From: a virus
Reading direction: 5' to 3' (one strand)
IMG/VR virus record: IMGVR_UViG_3300009124_000079
Coordinates: 1-27,865 of that record
Length of the DNA stretch: 27,865 nt
Positions 23,156-27,865 of this stretch are shown here, one piece after another (the first letter of the stretch is position 1; every line of letters begins with the position of its first letter). Both the position numbers and the translations under genes were made by a program. Under the pieces are notes generated by a model that saw only the letters and a list, made by a program, of their open reading frames with translations, had not been told where the DNA came from and ran no database searches.

Positions 23156-23592
23156 AGGAATTATGGCCACCCTCATTTATTGGTTGTTTTCAGGTCTTGG
23201 GCGAGCCGGTCGCCATGGGCCGTCCACGGTTCACACGAAACGGTCGGGTCTATACCCCAAAGAAGACCGAAGAAGCGGTGAATCATATCGCCAGTGTAGC
23301 GGCTGAAATGATACCCTATCGTGAATGTGAAGACATGTTCGACATATCCATCCAATTCCATTTTAAGAGACCCAAACGAATGAAGAAGGGCGCAGCTGTA
23401 CGAAAGGCGACAAAACCCGACATTGATAATTTGGTCAAGACCGTGTTGGATGGTCTCAATCGTTCGGGTGTTTGGGTTGACGACAATCAAGTCGTAGCGC
23501 TTAGGGCTTCGAAATATTACTGTGGGACCGACGAGGAACCACGGACCCAAATCTTCATTTATTCGGTGCGACATGACACGCTCCCATTCTAA
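23152..23592 (+). CDS. RusA-family Holliday junction resolvase
   Basis: A 146-residue endonuclease expected to resolve branched DNA. The RusA signature is present: G-R-P-R-F-T near residues 23-28, and K-P-D90-I-D92-N-L-V-K-T-V-L-D-G-L-N, then V-W-V-D110-D111. The spacing of D90, D92 and D111 matches the three catalytic aspartates of RusA (21 residues from first to third). It overlaps the HTH gene by four bases and the primase gene by 20 bases. Together with the Rad52-like protein it gives the phage its own recombination kit. Confidence 0.9.
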   Translation: MKELWPPSFIGCFQVLGEPVAMGRPRFTRNGRVYTPKKTEEAVNHIASVAAEMIPYRECEDMFDISIQFHFKRPKRMKKGAAVRKATKPDIDNLVKTVLDGLNRSGVWVDDNQVVALRASKYYCGTDEEPRTQIFIYSVRHDTLPF

Positions 23593-24481
23593 GCCTGTTA
23601 TCGACTGGGGGGCTTGGGACCTAGGCGTGACCCTGTTCGACAATCGCTTCCAACGGGTTGGGCTATCCTTGACATTGAATCACCAACACCCGCTTGATTG
23701 GGTGTTGAATGTTGGGTGGACGAATCGCAAGTGGAAAGGAAAGGACAAGGAAATGTTGTGGTCTCCAGCTGTCTATGAACCTCAAGCAACCCGAAAGAAG
23801 GCAAATGTCGTTAAGGTCAGCTGCATGGTCTACGATGTCGACGACGGGACACCTTTCGAAATGCACGCTTTATTTGGGGACTTCTATTATTATGCACACA
23901 CGACAGCAAGTTCGACACCTGAGACACCCAAGTGGCGATTGGTGCTTCCGCTAAAGAAAGCTGTCCCTGGAAAGGAATGGGGAAGGGCTTGGGAAGCGGG
24001 ACGACGGCTATTTAAGGACAGAACAGGTTCGGACATCGATGGGGCGTGCAAAGACCCGTCGAGAATGTACTATGTAGCGCCCCCAAAAGACATGTGTCAG
24101 GTGGCGACCTCAAGCCGAAAAGCTATTACGAGCTATGACGAAGGGGTCTTTTTGGACTTGGATTGGAAATCAATCGAAAAGCCCAAGCCACGAAACAAGG
24201 TTGTCAGCTTAACCCAACGAAAGGCCAAGACAGCCAAGTCTAGCGAACGGAAGATAATGGAAGCGCTGAAATGTGAACCCGACAGTCGAAAGGTAGCAGC
24301 TGAAAGACTTGGGGCACAGATAACAGGTGATGGTATAGCTCGTTATATTGAGTGCCCCCAATGCCGAAAGAAGGACGTGTGGTTTTGTATTGACCCTTCA
24401 CAGAAGCACACAGCACAATGTAACCACCGGAATTCGTGTGGTTGGTACGGGTCGGTTTATGATTTACTTAAGGAGATATGA
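23573..24481 (+). CDS. AEP/PrimPol-type DNA primase with C-terminal zinc ribbon
   Basis: About 302 residues. The catalytic DxD is likely D88-V-D90 (V-Y-D-V-D-D-G), the next motif is Y-A-H109 and then W-R122-L-V-L-P-L, with a later D-I-D-G-A-C-K-D-P-S-R-M-Y-Y-V (about 154-168). This order and spacing resemble archaeo-eukaryotic-type primases of phages and mobile elements. The last 45 residues hold a zinc ribbon: C-P-Q-C, then C-N-H-R-N-S-C-G-W-Y-G. The start is set at 23573, 20 bases inside RusA; an upstream in-frame ATG at 23522 would overlap much more. It is followed by the helicase, its natural partner. Confidence 0.75.
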   Translation: MTRSHSKPVIDWGAWDLGVTLFDNRFQRVGLSLTLNHQHPLDWVLNVGWTNRKWKGKDKEMLWSPAVYEPQATRKKANVVKVSCMVYDVDDGTPFEMHALFGDFYYYAHTTASSTPETPKWRLVLPLKKAVPGKEWGRAWEAGRRLFKDRTGSDIDGACKDPSRMYYVAPPKDMCQVATSSRKAITSYDEGVFLDLDWKSIEKPKPRNKVVSLTQRKAKTAKSSERKIMEALKCEPDSRKVAAERLGAQITGDGIARYIECPQCRKKDVWFCIDPSQKHTAQCNHRNSCGWYGSVYDLLKEI

Positions 24482-24483
24482 AA

Positions 24484-25734
24484 ATGGATATTAACGAAAT
24501 GGGACAACTACTCAACATTGAAACAACAGACCAACCCGAACGGGATGTCATGGACATGTTGGAGCGGAGCCGAGACCGAACGGTCGAAGGGGTGTTGATT
24601 CGTGGGGCTGTCAAAAGTCACGCCCTTAACGGTTCGATAATACTTGAAAACGATAGTCGAATGGAAGACCGCTTCACATATAACGAATTTAACGACCAAA
24701 TTTATGTCTTGGACCGACGGTTCGAAGACGAAGACATAACCGAGACCCAATTATGGTTACATCGTGTTTATGGGGTGCGGATTGGAAAGGATGTTGTATA
24801 CGACTTGATTGTGAGACAAGCCAAGTCTAAGCGCTTCCATCCTCTACAGGAATATCTTTTGGGCCTAGAATGGGACGGTGTTTGTCGTCTTGAAACATTG
24901 CTTCAGACCTATTGGGGCGTTGAAGACACCGAACTATTGAAAGAAATTGGACGTCGTTGGGCTGTTTCATGTGTAGCCCGTGCAATTATGCCAGGGTCAA
25001 AGGTGGACACGGTGTTGATTTTATGCGGTCCCCAAGGGGCTTACAAGTCAACAAGTCTTCGGGTGTTGGCTGGAAATGGGTGGTTTTCAGATAGTCACTT
25101 GGACATATCACGCAAAGAAAGCTACGAACTTATCCATTCAAGCGGTGTTTGGATTTGGGAAATGGCGGAAAACTACGCCCTTAATAAAAGCGATGTCAAT
25201 AACGCTAAAATGTTCCTTAGTGCACAGTCCGACCGCTTCCGCCCTTCCTATGGACGCACCCCAATAACCCGAGAACGGTCCGTGGTCTTCGTGTCAACAA
25301 CCAACGAACCCTCCTTCCTAACCGATGGAAGTGGGAACCGTCGTTATTGGCCGGTGAACATTGGGGAAGTCGACTTGGAAGGACTAGAACGAGACCGTGA
25401 CATGATATGGGCCGAAGCCATGCAGCTCCTACGAGATAATGAACCTTGGTGGTTGGATGAATCCTTCGAGGTTGATTTGTTCGAATACCAACAGAACTTT
25501 GTTATCGAAGACCCTTGGGAAACAGCCGTGAATAAATGCGCTGACATGTATCCCGATGGATTCCTTAACGATGATGTGTTCTACCAACTTGGACTCAACC
25601 CAAGCAGACAAACAAGAGACGACAACAAGCGGGTGAACAACATATGTCAGTCCCAAGGGCTGTACAAACACCGAATAACCGGTTCACTTCCACGACATCC
25701 ACATCTCATTCGACCAAGGGTTTGGAAATGCTAG
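24484..25734 (+). CDS. VapE/VirE-family P-loop ATPase, probable replicative helicase
   Basis: 416 residues. Walker A is G182-P-Q-G-A-Y-K-S-T; the Walker B region is V-W-I-W-E-M-A-E (about 222-229). F-V-S-T-T-N-E-P (sensor, N274) and G-N-R-R-Y-W-P (arginine finger, about 284-290) complete the SF3-like layout of VapE proteins. These are replicative ATPases in prophages and satellites. A C-terminal helical part may bind DNA. ATG 24484 is chosen over 24478 because AAGGAG (24470-24475) is correctly spaced for it. It follows the primase within one operon. Confidence 0.85.
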   Translation: MDINEMGQLLNIETTDQPERDVMDMLERSRDRTVEGVLIRGAVKSHALNGSIILENDSRMEDRFTYNEFNDQIYVLDRRFEDEDITETQLWLHRVYGVRIGKDVVYDLIVRQAKSKRFHPLQEYLLGLEWDGVCRLETLLQTYWGVEDTELLKEIGRRWAVSCVARAIMPGSKVDTVLILCGPQGAYKSTSLRVLAGNGWFSDSHLDISRKESYELIHSSGVWIWEMAENYALNKSDVNNAKMFLSAQSDRFRPSYGRTPITRERSVVFVSTTNEPSFLTDGSGNRRYWPVNIGEVDLEGLERDRDMIWAEAMQLLRDNEPWWLDESFEVDLFEYQQNFVIEDPWETAVNKCADMYPDGFLNDDVFYQLGLNPSRQTRDDNKRVNNICQSQGLYKHRITGSLPRHPHLIRPRVWKC

Positions 25735-26318
25735 TATTTATCGACATTGAAACAAGCGCCCTATACGCTGGACACCATCGAGATTCTAACGGCTTCCTTT
25801 ATTATGGGGAGCTGTTGGAGGTAGCCGTCATTCGTGAAGATGGAAAAGAATATGTATGGCGAATGGAGCCCGAAAAGCCCACCCTACACGACCCCAAGTC
25901 CATGTCCATTAACGGATACAACAATCGAAAACACAACTACTTAACCGAACCATGGCGCAATCACATTACACGAATCCATGAAACACTAGCTGTTCCTGGA
26001 ACGCTTTATGTTGGACACAATGTCCAATTCGATGTCCATTGGCTGAACTTTTGGTTCGAGAAAGCTGGACTTCCACCCATTCCCGTTCGATGTCTGGACA
26101 CCATGACCTTAGCCCATGAACATCTCACACCATGCGGTCTTCGTGGTTTGTCCTTCGACAAGATACGGAAGTTCCTTGGGTGGGAGCTGCGAGAATGTCA
26201 CGACGCCTTAAACGATTGTCGGGATGTCAAGCGGCTGTTCCAAACACTGAGACGAGCTACACTATTCGATAGACTGATATGGAGGTTCACAGGGTTATGT
26301 ATTTCCAAGTGGTTATAA
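25728..26318 (+). CDS. DEDDh 3'-5' exonuclease (DnaQ-like)
   Basis: A 196-residue exonuclease that may process ends or proofread. Motifs: D6 and E8 in V-F-I-D-I-E-T-S; D102 in V-G-H-N-V-Q-F-D-V-H-W; H158 and D163 in C-H-D-A-L-N-D-C. This is the DEDDh set. The N-terminus is short, with no other domain. The start overlaps the helicase stop by seven bases; an in-frame ATG at 25644 would overlap much more. It sits between the helicase and an HTH gene. Confidence 0.85.
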   Translation: MLVFIDIETSALYAGHHRDSNGFLYYGELLEVAVIREDGKEYVWRMEPEKPTLHDPKSMSINGYNNRKHNYLTEPWRNHITRIHETLAVPGTLYVGHNVQFDVHWLNFWFEKAGLPPIPVRCLDTMTLAHEHLTPCGLRGLSFDKIRKFLGWELRECHDALNDCRDVKRLFQTLRRATLFDRLIWRFTGLCISKWL

Positions 26319-26542
26319 AGGACCTCATGAAACGAAAGGGAATGACGATTGACGAATTCGCTGAAGCGCTTCACCTATCAGCTGGAGCTGTCTTGGGTTG
26401 GTTGACTGGATACGAACTTCCAACAGACAAAGAACTTTTGGTCTTGTCTTTATGCTTCGGAAACACCCAAGACCAATGGAAGCGAGCGTTCGAACTATTG
26501 CAACGAATTCGGGATGTTGACAGTCGAAGACATTTGAATTAG
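26297..26542 (+). CDS. HTH (XRE-like) protein, end of early operon
   Basis: An 81-residue protein with an XRE helix-turn-helix: V-I-K-D-L-M-K-R-K-G-M-T-I-D-E-F-A-E-A-L-H-L-S-A-G-A-V-L-G-W-L. It could be a late activator or an anti-repressor, but that is a guess. Start 26297 keeps the first helix whole and has GGAGG (26281-26285) ten bases upstream. Starts at 26279 or 26327 are possible. It is the last gene before the terminators and the DnaA-box region. Confidence 0.6.
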   Translation: MYFQVVIKDLMKRKGMTIDEFAEALHLSAGAVLGWLTGYELPTDKELLVLSLCFGNTQDQWKRAFELLQRIRDVDSRRHLN

Positions 26543-26592
26543 TGGACGCTTGAGTTCTGTACGACTCATTTCGTTTATCTCAATAAAATATT

Positions 26593-26635
26593 GAACCTCA
26601 TGTCAACTTTGCCCCTGACATGGGGTTCTCTTTTA
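26593..26635 (+). terminator. Intrinsic terminator of the replication operon
   Basis: A 13-bp stem GAACCTCATGTCA (26593-26605) with TGACATGGGGTTC (26616-26628), one G-T wobble and a 10-base loop, followed by TCTTTTA. It lies 50 bases after the HTH gene's stop. Nothing else is visible in 26543-26592. Confidence 0.65.
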
Positions 26636-26644
26636 TGTTATAGA
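26615..26644 (+). promoter_or_regulatory. Candidate promoter overlapping the terminator
   Basis: CTGACA (26615-26620, 5 of 6) and TATAGA (26639-26644, 4 of 6), 18 bases apart, with the -35 inside the terminator's right arm. The -10 is identical to that of the rightward early promoter. It would start a short transcript ending at the terminator at 26687. Confidence 0.35.
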
Positions 26645-26650
26645 ATTTGG

Positions 26651-26717
26651 CCGGAGAAGTTCTTCGGTGTTGCGAGAGATGAAGCAGGCGACCCATTCGT
26701 GGGTCGTCTTTATTTTT
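26651..26717 (+). ncRNA. Candidate small RNA next to the origin region
   Basis: If transcription starts near 26651, the RNA would be about 65 bases: a small hairpin at 26651-26667 (CCGGAGAA / TTCTTCGG), a short single-stranded part, then the terminator stem at 26687-26708. There is no open frame with a ribosome binding site. The role, if any, could be to regulate or prime replication. This is a sequence-based guess only. Confidence 0.3.
26687..26717 (+). terminator. Strong intrinsic terminator with TTCG loop
   Basis: GGCGACCCA (26687-26695) pairs with TGGGTCGTC (26700-26708) with one wobble, closed by a TTCG tetraloop and followed by TTTATTTTT (26709-26717). A textbook intrinsic terminator on the plus strand, directly upstream of the DnaA-box array and shielding it from early transcription. 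Confidence 0.85.
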
Positions 26718-26731
26718 GGCTTGAAAAAAAG

Positions 26732-26854
26732 TTATCCACAGGTTTATCCACAGAGTTATCCACAAGCAAACAGCCCGATACAATCGATACTCTTTGAAGT
26801 TATCCACAGAGTTATCCACAGGTTTATCCACAAGTTATCCACAGGTTATCCACA
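26732..26854 (+). repeat. Array of eight DnaA boxes (TTATCCACA)
   Basis: Eight exact copies of the consensus DnaA box TTATCCACA, all in the same direction, start at 26732, 26744, 26756, 26800, 26812, 26824, 26835 and 26846. Steps are 12 or 11 bp, about one helical turn, in groups of three and five with a 44-bp gap. No GATC is present. This looks like a DnaA-binding element: a phage origin, or a decoy that titrates host DnaA. Confidence 0.9.
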
Positions 26855-26882
26855 GGACAAAACCCAATTGGTTGAACCAATC

Positions 26883-27122
26883 TGTCCACGTTGTCCACCT
26901 GTGTCCAATAGTACTGGACAAGTTTAACCCATATCGAAACTAGATTATGAACAATCTGTCCAAAAGTCCACTAACTTTCTATAAGAGGGGTTTTATAGAA
27001 ATAAATAATAGTACTACAAAAGGGATTTTTTTGTGGACACGTGGACAGAATCACGAAAAGCCGCATAGAACAAGGGGTATTCCTGTCCACAACATGCGGG
27101 ACAACGTGGACAAACGTGGACA
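26883..27122. repeat. Cluster of TGTCCA/TGGACA iterons
   Basis: TGTCCA starts at 26883, 26892, 26902, 26957 and 27084; the reverse TGGACA starts at 26915, 27034, 27042, 27107 and 27117. Most are part of CTGTCCAC or TTGTCCAC, and neighbours are spaced 8-10 bp. They could be weak DnaA boxes, or binding sites for a phage initiator or regulator. An inverted repeat ATTGGTT-G-AACCAAT (26867-26881) lies just before. Confidence 0.7.
26971..27035. other. AT-rich stretch, candidate unwinding element
   Basis: A strongly AT-rich stretch between the iteron groups, with a small inverted repeat CTATAA/TTATAG, a run of A/T around 26997-27010 and TTTTTTT near 27026-27032. Such stretches next to DnaA boxes and iterons commonly open first at origins. 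No coding frame is credible here. Confidence 0.45.
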
Positions 27123-27124
27123 GG

Positions 27125-27472
27125 CTACTTCTTTCGGTCAATCTCTCTTAGGGTAGCGTTCACCCATATCCGTCCAGCCGAGCCACCCCAAAGGGCCCAA
27201 GCAATGGCAGCTTTAGAATTGGACTTCATTCGGGCTTTGGCTTCCAAGGGGCTATCCCCATGACGAGCGAACCAAGCAGACATTAACCGAAGCTGTTCTT
27301 CATCCACTTGGTCGTTCACTATCCGACGGGCTGTTCTCATCCCAGTCCCTTCGACTTTCTTTCCATCCACTTCTTTGTAAGCTGCACGCTGGGACAAGGG
27401 ACGGTCCAAGTTTACATTGATAGCACGCTGGACGAGTTGTTTGACATGGCTTGGGGCTTTATATACAGGCAC
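27125..27472 (-). CDS. Phage protein with a common ARH...AW.LWGG-type domain, unknown function
   Basis: A 115-residue protein starting at GTG 27472, set by a perfect AAGGAGGT four bases upstream on the minus strand. The C-terminal part (about 50-110) has A-R-R-I-V-N-D-Q, L-R-L-M-S-A-W-F-A-R-H, and A-I-A-W-A-L-W-G-G-S-A-G-R-I-W. From memory this matches a short domain of unknown function found in many phage proteins, often as F-A-R-H-E...A-W-x-L-W-G-G-D-A-G. A longer reading to 27724 would be antisense to the plus-strand gene at 27522. It faces left towards the iteron region and ends three bases from it. Confidence 0.65.
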   Translation of the reverse strand: MPVYKAPSHVKQLVQRAINVNLDRPLSQRAAYKEVDGKKVEGTGMRTARRIVNDQVDEEQLRLMSAWFARHGDSPLEAKARMKSNSKAAIAWALWGGSAGRIWVNATLREIDRKK

Positions 27473-27839: not shown

Positions 27840-27865
27840 CTGTCTCTTATACACATCTCCGAGCC
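27840..27865. other. Nextera transposase adapter (artefact)
   Basis: CTGTCTCTTATACACATCT (27840-27858) is the 19-bp Tn5 mosaic end used in Nextera libraries, followed by CCGAGCC from the read adapter. These 26 bases are not phage sequence. The genuine sequence ends at about 27839, and the right genome end may be missing. Confidence 0.97.

Follow-up and report, generated by a model that had tools for sequence, protein, structure and literature searches.

Phages with helicases of the VapE/PriRep type are thought to initiate their replication by themselves. Related helicases, i.e. the Rep proteins of the SaPI/PICI elements (PriRep1, SaPI5 Rep), are of the self-loading SF3 type, are encoded beside a primase and have short iterons downstream; in the SaPI Rep helicases it is the C-terminal domain that recognises the iterons located downstream of the helicase gene (PMC7581432). 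A second type of origin, represented by P1 oriR and other DnaA-assisted iteron plasmid origins, has boxes for the host DnaA beside the iterons of the initiator (RepA in P1), in P1 with one box pair on one side and a box with one mismatch on the other. DnaA-box clusters that bind much DnaA also occur outside oriC, namely in E. coli datA and DARS; datA holds two consensus boxes and four boxes with one misfit, and needs an IHF site between the essential boxes (PMC5835720). Bacterial oriC itself has an AT-rich tract bordered by DnaA boxes in head-to-tail order, and DnaA boxes are likewise present in non-coding DNA of virulent phages, for instance in the injection-stop region of T5 and the terminal regions of Berlinviruses.

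The contig analysed here (27,865 nt, referred to as the window) belongs to a tailed phage, and encodes a terminase, a tape measure protein and other structural proteins as well as a Rad52-like annealing protein, RusA, a primase-like protein and a VapE helicase. Downstream of the primase and VapE genes, an array of DnaA boxes adjoins TGTCCA iterons that are arranged in inverted order around an AT-rich tract. The array is placed 3' of the last gene of the replication operon (the HTH gene, which ends at 26542) and of two intrinsic terminators, and since a convergent gene, gpR, lies ahead of it, it occupies a 3'-3' intergenic region. The features are:

23522-24481, + strand: primase-like protein (PHROG 9765 DNA primase, 1.6e-16)
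24478-25734, + strand: VapE / PriRep-type SF3 helicase, putative phage initiator (Pfam PF05272, 8e-68)
25644-26318, + strand: DnaQ-like 3'-5' exonuclease (PF00929, 1e-8)
26279-26542, + strand: small HTH protein, last gene ahead of the array (PF01381, 7e-6)
26594-26635, + strand: intrinsic terminator 1, AACCTCATGTCA / TGACATGGGGTT, then CTCTTTT; also in L122
26686-26717, + strand: intrinsic terminator 2, AGGCGACCCA-TTCG-TGGGTCGTCT TTATTTTT; also in L122
26732-26764, + strand: DnaA-box block I, three perfect TTATCCACA at steps of 12 bp
26765-26799, no strand: spacer between the box blocks, 35 nt
26800-26854, + strand: DnaA-box block II, five perfect TTATCCACA at steps of 12, 12, 11 and 11 bp
26883-26971, + strand: left iteron set, TGTCCA(C) at 26883, 26892, 26902 and 26957, inverted copy at 26915
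26970-27034, no strand: AT-rich tract, putative unwinding element, up to 75% A+T (60-bp windows)
27033-27123, - strand: right iteron set, inverted TGGACA at 27034, 27042, 27107 and 27117, forward copy at 27084
27125-27469, - strand: gpR, convergent gene of unassigned function, used as marker for fetching relatives

With SaPI-like replicons the locus shares a helicase homologous to PriRep/VapE and iterons on both sides of an AT-rich tract, located 3' of the helicase gene, and with origins of the P1 oriR type it shares DnaA boxes adjacent to initiator iterons. It differs from the SaPI/PICI loci in the added DnaA-box array, in two more genes between helicase and origin (those of the exonuclease and the HTH protein precede the iterons) and in being part of a tailed phage that encodes a terminase and structural proteins of its own, whereas it differs from P1 oriR, with its unrelated RepA initiator, in having eight perfect boxes in phased blocks and a VapE helicase. 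Array and core together are a new variant of the known DnaA-plus-initiator origins, notable for the VapE-type core, for the density and perfection of the boxes and for the repeated gain and loss of the array. In the T5 and Berlinvirus regions the boxes are fewer or degenerate and have no VapE core alongside. A bacterial chromosomal oriC was rejected in view of the phage structural and replication genes found throughout; moreover, dnaA/dnaN or other chromosomal neighbours are absent and the AT-rich tract is framed by the iterons of another initiator. The likeness to datA and DARS lies in a box cluster outside oriC that is predicted to bind much DnaA. Assignment to the datA type appears to fail on the IHF site: no match to the IHF consensus (at most one mismatch) was found in the 35-nt spacer, and those one-mismatch matches that the window does contain lie within the array of boxes.

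Some observations concern the contig as such. Between the genes of the small and large terminase subunits, positions 1326-2069 encode a protein that has a PAS domain and a likely membrane segment; this block is unaligned in most relatives. The first 32 bases of the contig differ from the start of L124, L128 and L132 (bases 1-37), which share the end GTGTGCGTACGC...; this suggests that the latter have a fixed, cos-like genome end and that the start of the present contig is odd or chimeric. At the other extremity, 27840-27865 is Illumina Nextera adapter sequence (CTGTCTCTTATACACATCTCCGAGCC), and a one-mismatch box at 27847 is therefore not of phage origin. No TerL matches were obtained in phage records, and the single TerL relative among genome contigs (14.7 kb, in a MAG labelled Rhodospirillaceae) was considered too thin for a host assignment. 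The primase also matched a designed protein over 26 residues, which was treated as spurious.

The first-pass annotation of this DNA had reported eight perfect same-direction DnaA boxes with one-turn spacing. The boxes are indeed there, as exact + strand copies of TTATCCACA at 26732, 26744, 26756, 26800, 26812, 26824, 26835 and 26846 (array 26732-26854), and no further exact copy exists in the whole window. The spacing claim stands within the two blocks of three and five boxes, where the steps are 11-12 bp, but not across the array, where a 44-bp step spans the spacer (12, 12, 44, 12, 12, 11, 11 bp). From base composition, the two strands of the window together should hold about 0.23 exact copies, and the probability of eight copies on one strand within the array stretch (~6e-32) excludes a chance origin of the cluster. 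The array is a real, strongly selected feature. Coding use of the open reading frames that cross it was ruled out, as the frames are not kept in the 90%-identical relative L122, whose array differs by 1 nt and by 13 nt in length; RNA families were not found in the window, and a search for a promoter function of the array likewise yielded none. Neighbouring boxes are separated by 2-3 bp, which matches the in vivo preference of E. coli DnaA for box pairs (PMC11317965). Genomes contain copies of TTATCCACA to which DnaA does not bind (PMC11317965), and the boxes could thus be read by a phage protein or another factor instead of host DnaA; we regard this as highly improbable, considering that no DnaA-like match was found among the window proteins searched and that the box keeps to the common DnaA consensus where phage groups differ in iteron sequence.

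The iterons also stand out as a local feature, with 11 occurrences of GTCCA/TGGAC in the core region against 1.1 expected (~ten-fold, P 4e-8). The iteron/AT-rich region next to the array is a probable phage replication origin. That the phage has its own primase and an SF3-like VapE helicase, as annotated at first, was confirmed by the domain matches listed above (PF05272 and PHROG 9765). The VapE protein matches PriRep1 (PDB 7pds) in sequence (4e-41), and its AlphaFold2 model (mean pLDDT 87) matches the same structure in Foldseek (2e-26, TM about 0.7); the C-terminus (residues about 344-418) is modelled as winged-helix-like. Given this resemblance in sequence and fold, and the recognition of iterons by the SaPI Rep proteins (PMC7581432), it is most likely VapE that opens the iteron core.

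Taking array and core together, we consider it probable that the region 26543-27124 is an origin of which the iteron core is opened by VapE, and in which the array is an accessory, DnaA-recruiting helper. In this scheme the phage helicase would bind the inverted iteron pair around the AT-rich tract and open it, while the array would recruit host DnaA as a cooperative oligomer beside the core; the bound DnaA could then aid the opening of the origin or draw in parts of the host replisome, as at P1 oriR. The boxes, the core, the terminators, the helicase family, the constancy of the core and the repeated gain or loss of the array can be read from sequence; that DnaA binds the array, that the region fires, and that DnaA helps rather than being titrated is what we infer.

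The organization of the locus is retained in relatives. One of them, L122 (90% nucleotide identity), has 2+6 perfect boxes and one degenerate box in the same place, with an almost unchanged 35-nt spacer between drifting flanks. In L146 and L147 (VapE about 52%), 3+3 and 4+2 perfect boxes plus degenerate ones are found, in the same order as in the window: terminator(s), block I, spacer, block II, iterons, AT tract, inverted iterons. The block-to-block steps in this group are 44, 45, 54 and 54 bp, the last two being those of L146/L147 and differing from the former by about one helical turn, so that the two blocks stay roughly in phase on the helix. Further away, the corresponding slot of L024 (VapE 35%) is occupied by eight boxes on the other strand, together with a different iteron (ACAGAT), and most of the more distant VapE phages lack any perfect box near VapE. 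The premise of the first-pass annotation that a VapE origin can usually do without DnaA therefore holds.

To avoid picking loci by their boxes, relatives were also fetched by means of gpR, which has no matches in Pfam, NCBIfam or PHROG and is conserved beside the origin region in 59 viral loci. In the 58 loci that were scored, an array was defined by a minimum of three boxes, each having no more than one mismatch. A core, consisting of an AT-rich tract flanked by inverted iterons and never differing in orientation, is present in most loci; the score for symmetric iterons exceeds 5.5 in 35 of the 58, which happens in none of their shuffles. Arrays are present in 14 of the 58 loci, each time beside a core, which amounts to 14/43 loci with a core against 0/15 without (Fisher P 0.012), the no-core list having been compiled by hand from slot reading and symmetric-iteron scores; after clustering at 95% the numbers are 11/28 and 0/11 (P 0.017). 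The slots hold 67 perfect boxes, compared to 2 in 300 kb outside them (2.5 expected). On the VapE tree the iteron type changes four times, where three is the least possible, and array presence undergoes at least five changes (gains or losses), as exemplified by L275 with an array and L269-L273 without. The core is thus inherited with VapE, and the array is an optional add-on. Three quarters of the relatives with such a locus lack an array, which suggests that boxes are dispensable for the core. Arrays run either way or are of mixed orientation; they can precede or follow the terminator, at distances of roughly 130-360 bp to the AT tract. In L244, L246, L247, L256 and L275 the boxes form head-to-head pairs (TGTGGATAA-C-TTATCAACA) every 22-23 bp, against a head-to-tail arrangement in the window.

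The array lies at a junction of convergent genes, with the terminators on one side and the origin core on the other, which might indicate that array-bound DnaA acts as a barrier to transcription converging on the origin, or that it controls the neighbouring genes. This is very unlikely, however, as the two intrinsic terminators already do the former job, the array yielded no promoter that would serve a flanking gene, and it lies upstream of the terminator in L244, L247 and L256.

More weight has to be given to the possibility that the array was selected as a decoy, which would titrate host DnaA as the phage DNA multiplies, delay host initiation and free replisomes, and would be located beside the origin merely since there is non-coding space. 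Each phage copy brings eight consensus boxes, perfect and at the preferred spacing, into a multicopy situation, compared to 32 on the E. coli chromosome (PMC11317965), and plasmids with DnaA boxes raise the initiation mass (PMC5835720). In addition, the presence, orientation and position of the array vary freely among relatives: flipping orientation, location on either side of the terminator and variable distance are looser than expected of a fixed, oriC-like machine, and this loose geometry favours titration, as do the varied gene contexts of arrays in unrelated viruses (see below). Varying orientation and position would be equally compatible with a helper site of loose placement. The co-location of array and origin is also weaker evidence than it appears, because the slot is among the few long non-coding stretches of a compact genome. 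Nevertheless, a pure decoy would fit any gap, whereas no array in this phage group stands away from an iteron/AT core, boxes outside the slots are no more frequent than expected by chance, and the block-to-block steps in the group of the window (44, 45, 54 and 54 bp) roughly preserve the helical phase. On balance we consider selection as a decoy unlikely. Some titration seems unavoidable at high phage copy number, and titration of host DnaA is likely a by-product of the array.

The helper role, in turn, is supported by the strict co-occurrence of arrays with an origin core. A combination of DnaA with a phage initiator at one origin, which the first-pass annotation had put forward as one of two options, fits best, the array being found only beside symmetric iteron/AT-rich cores. 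The best reading of the comparisons is that the VapE-type origin would be self-sufficient and that a DnaA-recruiting module has been recurrently acquired, most likely with a role in origin opening or replisome loading. Against the background of a constant phage core, such origins repeatedly take up and discard what would be a strong docking site for the host initiator, and sister phages with and without the array thereby constitute a natural experiment on DnaA at a foreign origin, as helper or as hostage.

Arrays of this kind are not limited to the relatives of VapE loci. IMG/VR was scanned for three boxes 2-3 bp apart, with the letter-reversed pattern as a control, which gave at least 119 stretches (L003-L121; at least 66 clusters by sequence), with boxes at steps of 11-12 bp, against one for the control; this implies that arrays are selected and common in viral DNA. 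The boxes within a locus nearly all have the same direction. Among unrelated viruses the gene context is mixed and includes terminases, portals and replication genes, and a single gene context as explanation was rejected on the basis of this tally. In plasmids there were just two weak matches to similar arrays. A description of DnaA-box arrays as a class, which span at least 66 viral clusters, was not found in the literature searched. It is conceivable, although rather doubtful, that dense arrays are a mobile anti-host module, namely a self-amplifying DnaA sponge for phages with DnaA-independent origins, in which case host initiation would be shut down as the phage copy number climbs. DnaA-box clusters were also observed between the packaging and early genes of the T7-like Berlinviruses P483 and VB_Ship_A7 (L139, 3443-3568, and L140, 22-147). 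Finally, a similar box array is present in a gap between annotated genes of a Microviridae ssDNA phage (L286, MG945667.1, 3001-3050), and the pattern was matched in several further Microviridae records.
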